Shown one piece after another: positions 3,339 through 14,039 of a stretch of DNA of 64,000 nucleotides. Position numbers and translations under genes: made by a program. The notes beneath the pieces were generated by a model. It was not told the DNA's origin. It saw nothing but the letters and a program-made list of their open reading frames with translations, and ran no database searches. How positions within the stretch are numbered: the first letter of the stretch is position 1; each line of letters begins with the position of its first letter. Origin of the DNA: Kordiimonas sp. (GTDB taxonomy: Bacteria; Pseudomonadota; Alphaproteobacteria; Sphingomonadales; Emcibacteraceae); NCBI GenBank assembly GCA_002700365.1, contig PADB01000011.1, forward strand, positions 124,001 through 188,000. Reading direction: 5' to 3'.

Positions 3339-3500
3339 CTTATATGATCCATTATGCTTTATGGAAATTGACCCGTATCAATGAGCCTTACCCCACGCCT
3401 TCCTATAACTACCTCATGAACTGGACGTTATTGTGCAGGCTTTAACGATTTGTCACATTTCTTACCTATAAAGAAGACTTAAAACATCAGGAGCAAAAGA

Positions 3501-3737
3501 ATGACCCATATTCATCACACATTGATCGAAGAATTCCCCGAAGCCGTGGACAAGTTACATGAATTAAAAGTCAGCAATAACCATTTCATAAAGCTGTCCA
3601 ATGATTACAATGCCGTCAATGAAGAAATCAATAAACTGGAAGCAGGTCTGGAAGCATCATCAGATGAATATGCGGAAACGTTAAAGAAAAAACGCCTGAC
3701 ACTGAAAGATGAAATCGCGCACTTATTGCGTAGCTAA
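3501..3737 (+). CDS. DUF465 (YdcH-family) small protein
   Basis: A 78-residue protein matching the YdcH/DUF465 family of short, charged helical proteins that are very common in proteobacteria and have no settled function. The family signature of a predicted helical hairpin is visible: an N-terminal part with HELKVSNNHFIKLSNDYN, a Glu/Lys-rich turn and a second helix KKKRLTLKDEIAHLL. There is no signal peptide or membrane segment. AGGAGC lies 9 bases before the ATG and supports this start. It follows the gltD terminator, so it has its own promoter in the 160-base gap. Confidence 0.85.
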   Translation: MTHIHHTLIEEFPEAVDKLHELKVSNNHFIKLSNDYNAVNEEINKLEAGLEASSDEYAETLKKKRLTLKDEIAHLLRS

Positions 3738-4530: not shown

Positions 4531-5061
4531 TTACTTTTTAATTTTCCGTAATCCGGCCAATCCCAAAAGAGCAGGCCCAAAGAACCAGGCCGCTACAGGA
4601 ACCGGCACTTGCGGTACAGGTACAGACGCTGACGTTTCGCCGCGCAGTGTCAAAGAACCAAGCCGTGTGAAACCGGAAGTCGCGTTCTGCACTAATGACG
4701 CGGCCCCGTCATCAAAGAAGCCTGTCGCCAAATCTGCAGCTGAGAACGTATAACTCCAGGCATCTGGCCCAGGCGTATTCCAACACGCTGTATTCGCCAC
4801 ACACTGGGCCACTTGAATTGTATCAAGGAACAAGGTCAACGCCCCGCTGGTAACATTTTGGGAATTACCCCATGTACCTGAAACAGTTAGGGATGTAACA
4901 GACTCCCCAACAGGCACACTATATGTAAAGTCACCAATATACCCATTGCCGCCATTCACCTCTGGCAAGGTATCAAAAATCGGTGCCGCATAAGAGGCCC
5001 CCGTGCCAGCAAAGGCAACAACTGTCGCAACTGCCAGCGTTTTTTTAATCGATAACGCCAT
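4531..5061 (-). CDS. Secreted VPLPA-CTERM (PEP-CTERM type) sorting-domain protein
   Basis: The 176-residue protein has a Sec signal peptide (Lys-Lys, hydrophobic core, ASYAA near residue 26) and a C-terminal tripartite sorting signal: PVPQVPVPVAAW, a hydrophobic helix FFGPALLGLAGL and the basic tail RKIKK. This is the VPLPA variant of PEP-CTERM, which exosortase-type transpeptidases recognise at the inner membrane before release to the surface. The middle is beta-rich, Ser/Thr/Gly-rich and has two cysteines (QCVANTAC) that could pair. The strong Shine-Dalgarno GGAGG sits 7 bases before ATG. The partner enzyme is not in the window, but an exosortase-associated ligase-like protein is at 55.5-56.9 kb. 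Function of the mature protein is unknown. Confidence 0.85.
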   Translation of the reverse strand: MALSIKKTLAVATVVAFAGTGASYAAPIFDTLPEVNGGNGYIGDFTYSVPVGESVTSLTVSGTWGNSQNVTSGALTLFLDTIQVAQCVANTACWNTPGPDAWSYTFSAADLATGFFDDGAASLVQNATSGFTRLGSLTLRGETSASVPVPQVPVPVAAWFFGPALLGLAGLRKIKK

Positions 5062-6687: not shown

Positions 6688-7332
6688 ATGTCAGAAATTC
6701 TAAGTAAATACAAGGCATTAGCTCTAATCGGACTGGCAGGTCTATTGGCACTTTCACTCGCTGCCCTTGCCCCGGAACGAAACATAAATAGCAGCTCAAT
6801 CGCCCCGACCCCATCGCACGATAGCCTGCAAAAAATGACAGATGGCCATATGGCCGAAGTGTATAAAAGCCTGACACAACGGGCCAACTTTGTCCCAGAA
6901 AAGGACAATTTTGCCGCCTTTGGGGAAGAGGCGGAACAAGGCCGCGAATTACATTGTCTGGCGCAGGCGATTTATTTTGAAGCCCGGGGTGAACCTGTCG
7001 AAGGACAAATGGCTGTGGCTTTTGTCATTTTGAACCGTGTGAAAGATAATCGCTATCCGGACAGCATCTGTGGCGTTGTCTTCCAAAATGAACAAATGCG
7101 CAATCGCTGCCAATTTTCTTTCGCTTGTGATGGCCGCTCCGATGACCCGCGCGAAGCGCGGGCCTGGACCACAGCCCGGGGTGCGGCTGTTGCGGCTTTT
7201 TACAATCAAAACAGCGACTTCACCCATGCCTCTACACATTATCATGCCGATTATGTGCAACCGCATTGGGCTGACGCCCTGCATCCAACCCTACAGGTCG
7301 GGCAGCATATTTTCTATCGCGAAGAATCTTGA
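6688..7332 (+). CDS. SleB-type cell wall hydrolase
   Basis: A 214-residue exported protein with a Hydrolase_2 (PF07486) catalytic domain related to spore cortex hydrolase SleB, thought to cut peptidoglycan. An N-terminal membrane or signal segment (about residues 9-28, [18 protein letters not shown]) is followed by a linker and the catalytic domain from about residue 90. The probable catalytic Glu lies in the conserved AIYFEARGE, followed by [15 protein letters not shown] and a C-terminal H-Y-H segment. I use the ATG at 6688 because GAAGGGA lies seven bases upstream; an ATG at 6646 has no such site. It is driven by the 6416 promoter and is followed by a separate FNR-type promoter. Confidence 0.88.
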
Positions 7333-7366: not shown

Positions 7367-7380
7367 TTGATTTAAGTCAA
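7367..7380 (+). promoter_or_regulatory. FNR/FixK-type binding site
   Basis: TTGATTTAAGTCAA fits the TTGA-N6-TCAA palindrome bound by FNR, FnrL and FixK proteins. A TTTAATAGT stretch at about 7400-7408 lies at the spacing expected when the site is centred near -41.5, as at activated promoters. The next gene begins at 7434. Confidence 0.65.
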
Positions 7381-7433
7381 TGCTCTATCATTGAACGGGT
7401 TTAATAGTACTCAGGTATGGAAAAGGAATAGAA

Positions 7434-7643
7434 ATGGCGAAACCCATTATCTACTTGCTGTCAGGATTAACCACGATCATCCTTTTGATTGTTGCGTTCT
7501 CTATTGGCAATGCGGTTTTATTGCCAGCGATCTTCATGGCGGCCACCGTTGTCGTTGGTGCGCTGTGTCTGCATGTTGCACATGATATGATCGTTGCGCG
7601 CGATAAAGTCATGCAAGAATGGGAAGCCAAGCATCCGGAATAA
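7434..7643 (+). CDS. Small membrane protein, possibly oxygen-regulated
   Basis: A 69-residue protein with two predicted membrane helices (about residues 4-24 and 27-50) and a short charged cytoplasmic tail ending in EWEAKHPE. I do not recognise a family. AAGGAATAG lies just before ATG and supports the start. The FNR/FixK-type box 54 bases upstream suggests expression under low oxygen. A terminator follows at 7706-7740, so it is a single-gene unit. Confidence 0.75.
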   Translation: MAKPIIYLLSGLTTIILLIVAFSIGNAVLLPAIFMAATVVVGALCLHVAHDMIVARDKVMQEWEAKHPE

Positions 7644-7705: not shown

Positions 7706-7740
7706 AACGCTTCACCCCTTGGGGTGGAGCGTTTTCTTTT
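7706..7740 (+). terminator. Terminator of the small membrane protein gene
   Basis: AACGCTTCACCC and GGGTGGAGCGTT form a long stem with one G-U pair and a tight loop, followed by TTCTTTT. Confidence 0.85.
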
Positions 7741-9377: not shown

Positions 9378-11489
9378 TTATGCGGCCGGGTCCGCAAAGT
9401 GCTGCCAGCGGGCACGCCCGCCCTTATTATCCAAATAATTTAATAATGCTGCCACAGGGCCACGGTCATAGCGTTTATCGACATCTTTCAGTAACAAGAC
9501 CATGGCTTCATCAATAGGCATACCCGGGCGGTAAGCCCGCGCACATGTCATACCGACATAGGCATTGGCAACCGCAACAATACGCGCGGTCATCAGGATA
9601 TCTTCACCTTTCAGTCCCTCCGGCATACCTGATCCATCCCAATGGGCATGAACCTGACGAATAGTCTGCAATACAGGCCCGTCAAAAATTATGCCCTTTA
9701 GCATCTCGGCTGTTTTCGCAAGGTTTTCTCTCACCACCGTCAATTCAGACGTCGATAGCGTCTCCGGTTTCGTCAAGACTGACCGGGGCACCATAATTTT
9801 CCCCAAATTCATCAAGGCTCCGGCGATTTCTGCTGTTTCGACATCTTGATCCTTCAGGCCCATCTCTTCCGCTATCGTTTCCGCAACCTCCGCGACCCGT
9901 TTGGAATGATGCGTTGAAAAAGGATCACGGCTATCGATAATCGTTGCCAATGTTGTGACCAGATGACGCAGGTTCTGTTCACGTTTTTCACGCTCACTAA
10001 CCAGTTCGGTGATATCCTCCATCACCATGAGAACGCCGTGGTCAGTCATGCCCTCCTGATTTTTATCCAGCGGAATATGGTCGGATTTAATCATGCGTTG
10101 ACGGCCACTGTGTTCTACGCTGCGCATGCGCATAATAGGTTGGCCGCTTTCTACCGCTGCGGCATTGGCCTCTTCCAAAGGAGTGGCTTTTTCCGCCCCC
10201 AGCAGATCACGCATGGCACGCCCGATCATATCTTGCGCGGGCATTCCCACATCCGCAGCCGTCTGCCGATTGGCAAACGTATAATGCCCTTGTGAATCCA
10301 CTGCGGCAATTGATGTCGGCTGGCAGTCCGTGACCACCTTCAAAAAGCCATACACTTTTTCTAACTTTTCAGCTAAATGCCGATACCGTTCAGCCGCCGC
10401 CGCCACCCGTACGGACGCCCCATGACGCCATACTAATAAAACCGCTCCACTCACCAATAAAATCAGCAAAGATGAAATCGTCAGGATCATATTGCGTCTT
10501 TGTGAAATTGCCCCCAAAGCCTCACGTGCATCAATAGTGCGCACCATAAGCCAATCTGTCCCCCCGACCTGCCGCCCCGTGGCCAATACCTTTCGGCCAT
10601 CAAAGGCTGTTGCCTGCTGAAAGCTTCCGGGCTTTTTCAGTAATTTTGCGGCCGCCAATGAAGGGGTATCTGCGGATAAACTAAATTGTAAGGGGGCATG
10701 TATCCCCCCCGCATAAGACAAGGGCGACAAATATTCAATAGCCGCGCCGCGCTGGCGCACAAGATAGGTCCGGGCGCTATGGGAAATTTCCCCCGGTTGT
10801 CGTAAGCGATCAAATAAATCATCGCCCAAAGGCCGCACCCCGATTGCATAACCGATGGCCCCACCCTCGTCTAATGGCTGGATCGCTGCGATCGGGGCAA
10901 TCACAGCCACCGCCGCACGGCCATCCTCCCCGACAAAGGGGCCAAAAAAGTTACGTTTTTCAAGGCCCTGCTGTATCTGGCGTTGATAATCACGCAGTAT
11001 CTCCCGGGCAATGATCGGCATATTGGGCGTTGCCACCATGACGTCACCTTCCGGCGATGTCAGTACAATCCCGGCCACGGCGGGGCGATCAATATTGACG
11101 GGCACGTCAGCACGTCCCTGTGCCGCGGCAAACCCATTTTGCTGCGCCACCACATTTAACATATTCTCCAGATACCCTAGCTGTGCGGCCCCCCCTGTGA
11201 CATCGTCCTGCACCACACCATAAGAAATTTCCGTCAAATAAATCTGTAACGAGCCGTTTTCCGCCAGGTCTGTTACGACTTTTTGCTGTTGGCCAACCCA
11301 GTCTTCAACCGCGACAAGCCGGCTCTGCATAACGACCGAAAGCTGTTTCTGCCACGCCAGCAAGTCCCGTTTGCGTTCCGATTCCGCAAAGCTAAAAGCC
11401 AGATAAAATCCAAATAATGCCGCTCCCAGCACGACCATAAAGATCAATAGAGCTGCCCGTCTTGCTTGCCACCACCCTAACGTTGTCAC
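9378..11489 (-). CDS. Membrane sensor with PAS and degenerate HD-GYP domain
   Basis: A 703-residue membrane sensor: helix TM1 at about 13-32, a periplasmic sensory region (Cache-like) to about 330, TM2 at about 333-353, a PAS domain at about 380-480 (TSIAAVDSQGHYTFANRQ) and an HD-GYP region at about 500-690. HD-GYP proteins hydrolyse c-di-GMP using metal ligands, but here the central HD is Met-Asn in ALMNLGKIMVP, the GYP is GMP in WDGSGMPEG, and the later conserved Asp is Asn in VAVANAYVGM. It is therefore probably a sensor or scaffold rather than an enzyme. A GTG start with GGCGGATAAG upstream is used. It lies next to lapG but on the other strand. Confidence 0.85.
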   Translation of the reverse strand: MTTLGWWQARRAALLIFMVVLGAALFGFYLAFSFAESERKRDLLAWQKQLSVVMQSRLVAVEDWVGQQQKVVTDLAENGSLQIYLTEISYGVVQDDVTGGAAQLGYLENMLNVVAQQNGFAAAQGRADVPVNIDRPAVAGIVLTSPEGDVMVATPNMPIIAREILRDYQRQIQQGLEKRNFFGPFVGEDGRAAVAVIAPIAAIQPLDEGGAIGYAIGVRPLGDDLFDRLRQPGEISHSARTYLVRQRGAAIEYLSPLSYAGGIHAPLQFSLSADTPSLAAAKLLKKPGSFQQATAFDGRKVLATGRQVGGTDWLMVRTIDAREALGAISQRRNMILTISSLLILLVSGAVLLVWRHGASVRVAAAAERYRHLAEKLEKVYGFLKVVTDCQPTSIAAVDSQGHYTFANRQTAADVGMPAQDMIGRAMRDLLGAEKATPLEEANAAAVESGQPIMRMRSVEHSGRQRMIKSDHIPLDKNQEGMTDHGVLMVMEDITELVSEREKREQNLRHLVTTLATIIDSRDPFSTHHSKRVAEVAETIAEEMGLKDQDVETAEIAGALMNLGKIMVPRSVLTKPETLSTSELTVVRENLAKTAEMLKGIIFDGPVLQTIRQVHAHWDGSGMPEGLKGEDILMTARIVAVANAYVGMTCARAYRPGMPIDEAMVLLLKDVDKRYDRGPVAALLNYLDNKGGRARWQHFADPAA

Positions 11490-11755
11490 GGTCTTATCCG
11501 CCTTTTCTCATGATTTCCGCGCGCCCGTAAATAATGGTTAATTTTCCACAGCCACAGCGCGACTTTAACCACTAAGTAAGCATTCCTCTCTTATACTCTA
11601 CCGCAGACGGACATCCATATGTCGATTGAATATAACAGCCTCACGCTTTTATGTTCCTTAGCTAACCCCTTCAGATAAAAGGGCTTATCTAATATTATTA
11701 TCATTATGGCATTGTTCCGTCCAATGAGGAAAGCAGAAAAAATACGGACGTCAGC

Positions 11756-12586
11756 ATGACAACGCAAAATAATGCGCCAGAAAACATTAAAAAAAATCCG
11801 ATGTTGCCCCACTTTATGCGACATGCGGCCAGCTCTGCGCGTTCCCAGACAGATAAAAATGACAGTGTCATCACCCCCGCGGCCTATCAACCCACGGACG
11901 TTCATCACTACACAAAGCCGCGTCTGTTGATTTTAAGCACCGGCATTGCTGTCAGCCTATTGCTGTTTCTTTTTATGGTGATATCCAGTCCCGCCCATGC
12001 GTTAGGACAGACCAATACTAAGGGTTTGTTTGGCTCACAAGAAGTCCGCAGCGACCGCCTCGTTGCATTCCGCAAATGGACGGAAATGCTCAAACGTAAT
12101 ACAGATCATATGCGTGGCCTGCACCTGAAAGGCCCCTGCCGGGTCACCATTTCCTTCAAATGCCCTGAAGATGAATGGAAATCTTATTTAGGTGACTTGC
12201 ATAATCAGGATGATCTGGAAAAGATAAAAGCCATCAACAGTTACATGAACCGTGCGCCCTATATCACCGACCCGCGTAATTGGGGGGTGAAAGATTACTG
12301 GGCAACATTAAAAGAATTCTTCCTGAAAGATGGGGATTGCGAAGATTATGCTATTGCAAAATACTTCTCTCTCAAGGCCCTCGGTATCGCCCCGGAACAA
12401 ATGCGTATCGCTGTTGTCGAAGACATGAACCTGAAAAGTCCCCATGCTGTTCTGGTCGTCAACCTAAAAGGCCAGAACTGGATTTTGGATAACCAGATTC
12501 CAACCGTCGTTAAAGAAAACGCTGTGTATCACTACCGCCCAATCTATTCGATTAATGAAACGGCGTGGTGGCTACACCGCATGTAA
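11756..12586 (+). CDS. lapG: LapG-type bacterial transglutaminase-like cysteine protease
   Basis: A 276-residue protein of family C93 (DUF920), the periplasmic protease that in Pseudomonas cuts the biofilm adhesin LapA when c-di-GMP is low. The catalytic triad is present: Cys about 195 in GDCEDYA, His about 230 in PHAVLVV and Asp about 245 in WILDN, plus the family phrase NWGVKDYWATLKEF. An N-terminal charged tail of about 45 residues precedes one hydrophobic segment (LLLFLFMVISSPAHA) that is a signal peptide or anchor. Calcium-binding acidic residues near D-E-W are also plausible. No LapD gene follows; instead a soluble GGDEF/EAL-like gene begins 22 bases downstream. Confidence 0.87.
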   Translation: MTTQNNAPENIKKNPMLPHFMRHAASSARSQTDKNDSVITPAAYQPTDVHHYTKPRLLILSTGIAVSLLLFLFMVISSPAHALGQTNTKGLFGSQEVRSDRLVAFRKWTEMLKRNTDHMRGLHLKGPCRVTISFKCPEDEWKSYLGDLHNQDDLEKIKAINSYMNRAPYITDPRNWGVKDYWATLKEFFLKDGDCEDYAIAKYFSLKALGIAPEQMRIAVVEDMNLKSPHAVLVVNLKGQNWILDNQIPTVVKENAVYHYRPIYSINETAWWLHRM

Positions 12587-12608
12587 ACAGGGCCGAATAA
12601 GGATTTCA

Positions 12609-14039
12609 ATGAACATACGCGTCCGCAAAGATAGTACCGCAAAGCAAAGCCGTCCTTCACAGGAAGAGCAGCTGCTGGACTATGCCCGCCAGTTAAAACG
12701 ACATGGTAAAGGACGCCATGCCATCCATTTACGTCTTTCCAACCTCAGCCGCCAAAACCGGCAACCGCATCATCGCCACATGGTCGCCGGGGCCTTTAAT
12801 AGCTTAATTAGAAATTATGAAGCCCATCTTTTCTGGCTTAATAATTTTGATCTTGTTTTTGTCGGAAAAGATTGCGGTCTGGACGAAATTAACCGTGTTG
12901 TCTTACAAATTCGCCTGATGTTCAAAGATGACCATAATATCGCTGTCGAAGACGATCCTGATCAGAAGGACGGCTTTTGCGACTGGTATGATATTGAAAA
13001 AAATTATGATGATTTTCTAAAGCAGATGACTTACCTGCATGACCATCATCTTAAATTGCAGGAATTAGATGAATATCCCGATGCACAGAACCCTACTGAT
13101 ATAGACCACCTGCAGGCCAGCCCGGAAGCCTCACCAACCCCCGACACAGATGCCGTAAATGACGGGTCAACCCCTGCCATTCATAATAACCTCCAGGATA
13201 TGGTTGACCACCTCAGCCACGCTGGCAGCACCGACACGCAGCCTGTTGCCAAAGAGGAGGCCGAATACAGTTTCCATATTCACCGTGAAGATTATAAGCC
13301 CAAGGCAAAAACAGTCCCCCCTATGGGGCCCGCCGAGCTGGACAAACTGGAACGGGCATTAGAATCTGTGGATATGTCCACATTAATCCGCGAACAAAAA
13401 GCCTGTGCGTTACTCCCCGGAGAAAATCCTCACCCCATTTTCACAGAACATTACGTGTCTATTGATGAAATCAATCAGCAAATTCTGCCCGGTTATAACC
13501 TGCAACATGACCGTTGGCTGTTTCAGCGTCTCACCCGTATTCTTGACCGTAAGGTGATGTTCTCACTTAGCAATATTCCAAATACGCCCCATGGGGTCCT
13601 CAGCATTAACGTCAATGTAGACTCTGTTCTCTCTACAAGCTTCAGTCAATTTCGGCAGAAAATACAACATCTCACCCATAAACCTCTGATTCTGGAATTT
13701 CAGTTATTTGACGTGATCGCAGATATGAAAAAATTTCTGGACGCACAGGAGCGGGCCAAACAGATGGGCTGTAAACTGGCATTAGATGGCATGGATTTTT
13801 ATTCTTTCCTGGCTTTGGACCGCCGCTTTATCAAGGTGGATTTCTACAAAATCGCCTGGCAAGAAAATTTCACCAGCCACCACATTGCCGATATGCATAA
13901 TCAGCTCATCTCCCAAATTCGCTCTCTGGGGCCTGAACGGGTAATCCTGTGTCATTGCGATAGTCAAAAGGCCGTACAGGATGGCCAGAAGCTCGGCATT
14001 CACCTGTTTCAGGGATATAGTCTGGACGAACTTATCTAA
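12609..14039 (+). CDS. Soluble protein with degenerate GGDEF-like and EAL-like domains
   Basis: A 476-residue soluble protein. The first 115 residues resemble a degenerate GGDEF-type fold (NFDLVFVGKDCGLDEINRVV), residues 116-265 form an acidic low-complexity linker, and the rest is an EAL-like domain. In the latter, the EAL motif position reads TEHYVSIDE, the DDFG position LALDGMDFYS, the KID position FIKVDF and the end QGYSLDE; several metal ligands are missing, so c-di-GMP hydrolysis is unlikely. Such domains often bind c-di-GMP or act as effectors. TAAGGA before the ATG at 12609 favours this start over an ATG overlapping lapG. Co-directional with lapG, 22 bases apart, so functional linkage is likely. 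Confidence 0.75.
   Translation: MNIRVRKDSTAKQSRPSQEEQLLDYARQLKRHGKGRHAIHLRLSNLSRQNRQPHHRHMVAGAFNSLIRNYEAHLFWLNNFDLVFVGKDCGLDEINRVVLQIRLMFKDDHNIAVEDDPDQKDGFCDWYDIEKNYDDFLKQMTYLHDHHLKLQELDEYPDAQNPTDIDHLQASPEASPTPDTDAVNDGSTPAIHNNLQDMVDHLSHAGSTDTQPVAKEEAEYSFHIHREDYKPKAKTVPPMGPAELDKLERALESVDMSTLIREQKACALLPGENPHPIFTEHYVSIDEINQQILPGYNLQHDRWLFQRLTRILDRKVMFSLSNIPNTPHGVLSINVNVDSVLSTSFSQFRQKIQHLTHKPLILEFQLFDVIADMKKFLDAQERAKQMGCKLALDGMDFYSFLALDRRFIKVDFYKIAWQENFTSHHIADMHNQLISQIRSLGPERVILCHCDSQKAVQDGQKLGIHLFQGYSLDELI

Follow-up and report, generated by a model that had tools for sequence, protein, structure and literature searches.

An FNR-type box conserved across the Emcibacteraceae probably places an orphan small membrane protein gene under class II FnrL control

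The 64,000-nt stretch of DNA analysed here (the window) contains, on its forward strand, a 69-residue open reading frame at 7434–7643. An earlier note on this DNA had claimed an exact TTGA-N6-TCAA ahead of the frame, and TTGATTTAAGTCAA was indeed read at 7367–7380 on the forward strand, with its centre at 7373.5 and 60 bp upstream of the ATG. Comparison with relatives supports the promoter, its conservation, its regulon context, the structure of the gene, its restriction to one family and its independence of the cbb3 and bd oxidases, and makes this gene structure, with regulation from a class II FnrL-activated promoter, very probable. We infer that the gene would respond to oxygen as follows. 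When the oxygen level drops, FnrL, an FNR-type [4Fe-4S] activator whose gene lies elsewhere in the genome, would bind at 7367–7380, at approximately −41.5, and recruit RNA polymerase; one short gene would then be transcribed, ending at a terminator at 7706–7733. Its product, a 69-residue membrane hairpin whose two termini are predicted to be cytoplasmic and whose C-terminal tail is charged, might act as a small accessory protein or modulator on a membrane complex found throughout the Emcibacteraceae that is neither the cbb3 nor the bd oxidase. Such a promoter would add an undescribed gene, a new orphan member, to the conserved FnrL low-oxygen regulon.

The open reading frame is a real translated gene, since the differences between its orthologues fall mostly at the third codon position. 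It is preceded by a Shine-Dalgarno-like AAGGAA (7423–7428, forward strand), and an AAGGA-type site is retained in nearly all relatives. A cell-wall hydrolase gene (sleB) lies upstream and ends at 7332, so that the box is situated beyond its stop codon, and an intrinsic terminator follows the small gene on the same strand at 7706–7733, its stem of 12 pairs (−20.4 kcal/mol, z = −4.0) being followed by a tail rich in T. Because of these two boundaries the gene is probably transcribed alone, as had been claimed from the sequence of the window, and the persistence of both box and gene in genus g5, where sleB is missing from this place, agrees with that claim. No Rfam family was found in the region.

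A conserved block at 9378–14039, coding for an HD/PAS protein, a LapG-type BTLCP peptidase and an EAL protein (the last barely above its family cut-off), adjoins the small gene in most members of the family. The small protein might work in this c-di-GMP/envelope block, the cell-wall hydrolase included, and link low oxygen to a change in biofilm or envelope, a proposal that concerns the role of the protein only and not its regulation. Although most loci of the family show the same arrangement of this gene and the HD, BTLCP and EAL genes, the small gene has its own promoter and terminator, some of the neighbours lie on the other strand, and sleB does not accompany it in genus g5. Moreover, none of the HD, BTLCP and EAL genes was found in the stretch examined of genome G023 (locus L043), though the small gene is kept there. 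A role in the c-di-GMP block is therefore not favoured, and we consider it unlikely. On the other side of the gene, at 4531–5061 on the reverse strand, the window codes for an exported-looking protein ending in VPVPVAAWFFGPALLGLAGLRKIKK, which resembles a PEP-CTERM-type sorting tail.

Orthologues of the small gene were identified in 25 of the 32 Emcibacteraceae genomes examined (21 of the 22 of good quality), with protein identities of 35–46% to the window copy. None was found in 117 other genomes of the order, and a search of 385 genomes of the class returned weak or chance matches only, among them L036 and L037, which read by eye as SecF and as a LysE-type transporter, respectively. Another of these weak matches, a short GC-rich open reading frame with a similar LPAxFM stretch (L035, in G225), is a possible distant relative; it is not preceded by an FNR box. 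A single-sequence scan of genome contigs failed to reveal relatives, and a search of genome contigs with a family profile yielded 20 loci, all in Emcibacteraceae-type records. As far as searched, the protein thus appears to be restricted to the Emcibacteraceae. Literature searches returned no report on the gene.

The earlier note had suggested looking for the same box before orthologues and had named its absence there, along with a lack of change with oxygen, as a refutation. The comparison with orthologues was passed: a perfect TTGA-N6-TCAA was found upstream of 24 of the 25, centred 58–64 bp before the start codon. At these loci all eight letters of the box agree with the window copy (100% identity), as against 37% for the 45 bases upstream and 32% for the 34 bases downstream. 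Over five genera the pattern TTGA-nn-TA-nn-TCAA is invariant, together with an A two bases before it and a G two bases after it.

The geometry of the promoter was then compared with that of known FNR-activated promoters, which in E. coli cluster at −41.5 ± 4 (PMC3688515); the spacings here, as measured to predicted −10 hexamers, fit that range. In the window the −10 region, TTTAATAGT (7400–7408, forward strand), aligns with the TATAAT-type hexamers of many relatives. The −10-like sequence, claimed earlier to lie at a distance suited to activation, is present; its exact hexamer is ambiguous. It can be read as TTTAAT (7400–7405), with the box at approximately −38.5, or as AATAGT (7403–7408), with the box at −41.5, the latter being the geometry found at hemN (TATAAA) and ydcH (TATAAC) of the same genome, where the box stands exactly at −41.5. 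In many relatives a TATAAT-like hexamer follows some 23 bases past the box, which places the box near −42.5; the −10 of the window copy is weaker than theirs. A scan for sigma-70 promoters returned none of conventional type immediately upstream of the gene, which is consistent with dependence on an activator. The Fnr boxes of the sphingomonad Sphingopyxis granuli are centred at −41.5 for ccoN and −42.5 for hemN2 (PMC7713065).

The genome of the window encodes a plausible regulator at L026, a protein of the FNR type that carries CGHCDVRHTAMC together with a central cysteine and an ETVSR recognition helix. Its CX2CX7C motif and the central cysteine together provide four candidate Fe-S cysteines. 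The best match of L026 is to the FnrL model, though its score does not reach the equivalog cut-off that NCBIfam sets for the Rhodobacter protein. Control of FNR/FixK type had been proposed for this gene, and the conserved boxes, the class II spacing, the motif before ccoN and hemN, the presence of FnrL in the genome and the decay of the box in G023 (below) together give its FNR-type part strong comparative support. FnrL is a better name for the regulator than FixK, because of the CX2CX7C motif, the central cysteine and the best match to the FnrL model.

About 50 of the 56 perfect boxes in this genome were examined for their gene context, perfect matches only being considered, and most of these lie inside genes. 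The intergenic ones include those before hemN, ccoN, a DUF465/YdcH-like gene (ydcH) and the 69-residue gene. The identities of ccoN and hemN were assigned with TIGR00780 and TIGR00538, and both are classical FnrL targets (PMC2908626, PMC4634722). Among the 25 family genomes in which ccoN was found, 24 have a perfect box ahead of it, the remaining box containing an N, and a box with eight or seven of the eight letters precedes hemN in 23 of 27 genomes. The box before ydcH lies within the window (TTGACCCGTATCAA, 3368–3381, forward strand) ahead of the gene at 3501–3737, with TATAAC at 3404–3409, so that the window holds a second candidate class II FNR promoter, and perfect boxes before ydcH occur in three further family genomes (G024, G025 and G028). 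The same TTGA-N6-TCAA box and a spacing of approximately −41.5 characterise the alphaproteobacterial FnrL/FnrN class II promoters of ccoN, hemN and uspA (PMC7713065, PMC4634722, PMC2908626); the target here differs in being an orphan gene confined, as far as searched, to the Emcibacteraceae. In the passages of these papers that were examined, no small membrane protein resembling the 69-residue protein was seen.

Genome G023 (99% complete, 2.2 Mb; loci L009 and L043) provides a natural control. It contains no FnrL orthologue, ccoN, ccoO or hemN, its FNR-like protein being only a 37% paralogue that has no central cysteine, and among all the orthologues its copy alone is preceded by a box that has decayed. 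The low-oxygen regulon has apparently been lost from this genome, and the decay of the box in the absence of FnrL ties the one to the other, the co-loss counting as one event. The small gene itself is still kept, which suggests that it is useful even where the rest of the FnrL regulon is gone. This control makes both the regulation and the function of the gene testable in cultured Emcibacteraceae. Two genomes depart from the pattern: in G020 (92% complete) and G010 (95%) the box is still perfect, and a close FnrL was not found in either. Gaps in the assemblies could explain both exceptions, or in G020 the second FNR-like paralogue could.

The box might instead be used by another CRP/FNR-family protein, either this second paralogue or L027, which has no N-terminal cysteines, in which case the oxygen signal would not reach the gene directly through FnrL. 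Both proteins carry the E-x-x-S-R recognition residues, and in G020 the second paralogue is the only candidate detected beside a retained box. On the other hand, G023 possesses the second paralogue and has nevertheless lost the box along with FnrL, that paralogue was not detected in the genome of the window, and L027 matches the FnrL model weakly. Use of the box by either protein is accordingly improbable, and FnrL remains the preferred regulator. The second paralogue (L178–L183), which occurs in several family genomes, has the CX2CX7C motif and no obvious central cysteine. In three g5 genomes the FnrL orthologues themselves (L170, L172 and L174) are without the central cysteine, reading FGLDDQ, FGLSSS and FGLSNG where others have FGLAC or FGLSC, which suggests that these proteins sense oxygen in an altered manner.

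The product of the gene had been described as an uncharacterised two-helix membrane protein, a description borne out by structure prediction. AlphaFold returned a hairpin of two helices (residues 3–24 and 26–66; mean pLDDT 85), and both ends are predicted to be cytoplasmic, with a charged C-terminal tail. Residues G25, L29, P31, M35, G42 and C45 are invariant in both alignments. No relative and no described family was found in searches of Pfam, NCBIfam, PHROG and PDB. Neither sequence nor fold searches of PDB returned anything significant, an expected outcome with a two-helix hairpin. Pfam matches to COX14 and NDUF_C2 fell below the cut-off and were not common to the family, and no Pfam match to HIG_1_N, the family of HIG1/Rcf1-type hypoxia proteins, was found.

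Small proteins of this kind are usually linked to terminal oxidases, and such a tie had been suggested for this gene. It is not supported by the distribution of the oxidases. The small gene is kept in four genomes that have neither ccoN nor ccoO (G006, G015, G020 and G023; 92–99% complete) and in many that have no cytochrome bd, cydA being present in 6 of the 32 genomes (one a weak partial match) and not in that of the window. This retention argues that the protein is not a subunit of the cbb3 or the bd oxidase. Shared FnrL control could still be explained if it were a dedicated cbb3 subunit or assembly factor, and a box before both this gene and ccoN and a size similar to that of CcoQ and CcoS would fit such a part. 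Against this stand the same four genomes, a ccoNOQP-GHIS set that is already present, known small parts included, in the genome of the window (genes beyond ccoN being assigned by gene order and sequence, and ccoO by a separate search as well), and the lack of any sequence match to the CcoQ, CcoH and CcoS families; we consider a cbb3-dedicated part very improbable. A CydX-type bd subunit was also considered and rejected, the gene showing no co-occurrence with cydA. The protein is short, membrane-embedded and linked to low oxygen, as are CcoQ, CcoS, CcoH, CydX and the HIG1/Rcf1-type proteins; it differs from them in having no sequence match to them and in being kept without cbb3 and without bd. 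It would thus be an FnrL target separable from the terminal oxidases.

From its size and predicted fold, the most likely role of the protein would be that of an accessory protein or modulator of a widespread membrane complex, other than cbb3 or bd, at low oxygen, an assignment that we put forward tentatively. More speculative still is a fuller version of this proposal, in which a lineage-specific core member of the FnrL regulon would modulate a constitutive respiratory or energy-coupling complex (again neither cbb3 nor bd) as oxygen falls. If true, it would reveal a small-protein branch of low-oxygen adaptation that has not yet been described.

By count, the motif alone is weak evidence. The window holds four matches to TTGA-N6-TCAA where 1.6 are expected by chance, and the whole genome (2.4 Mb) holds 56, compared with 17 for a reversed control pattern; the box TTGATTTAAGTCAA is significant because it is conserved before orthologues. 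The count in the window is all that would favour a chance box before a spurious small open reading frame, a reading whose probability is practically nil and which is already refuted, since the box, its position and the protein are all conserved over five genera. In genus g5, the upstream regions (L002–L015) also share a conserved ATCAATAAACTTGATTTTTT element some 15–35 bases before the FNR box, candidates for which are a weak terminator of the preceding gene, an UP-like element or further half-sites.
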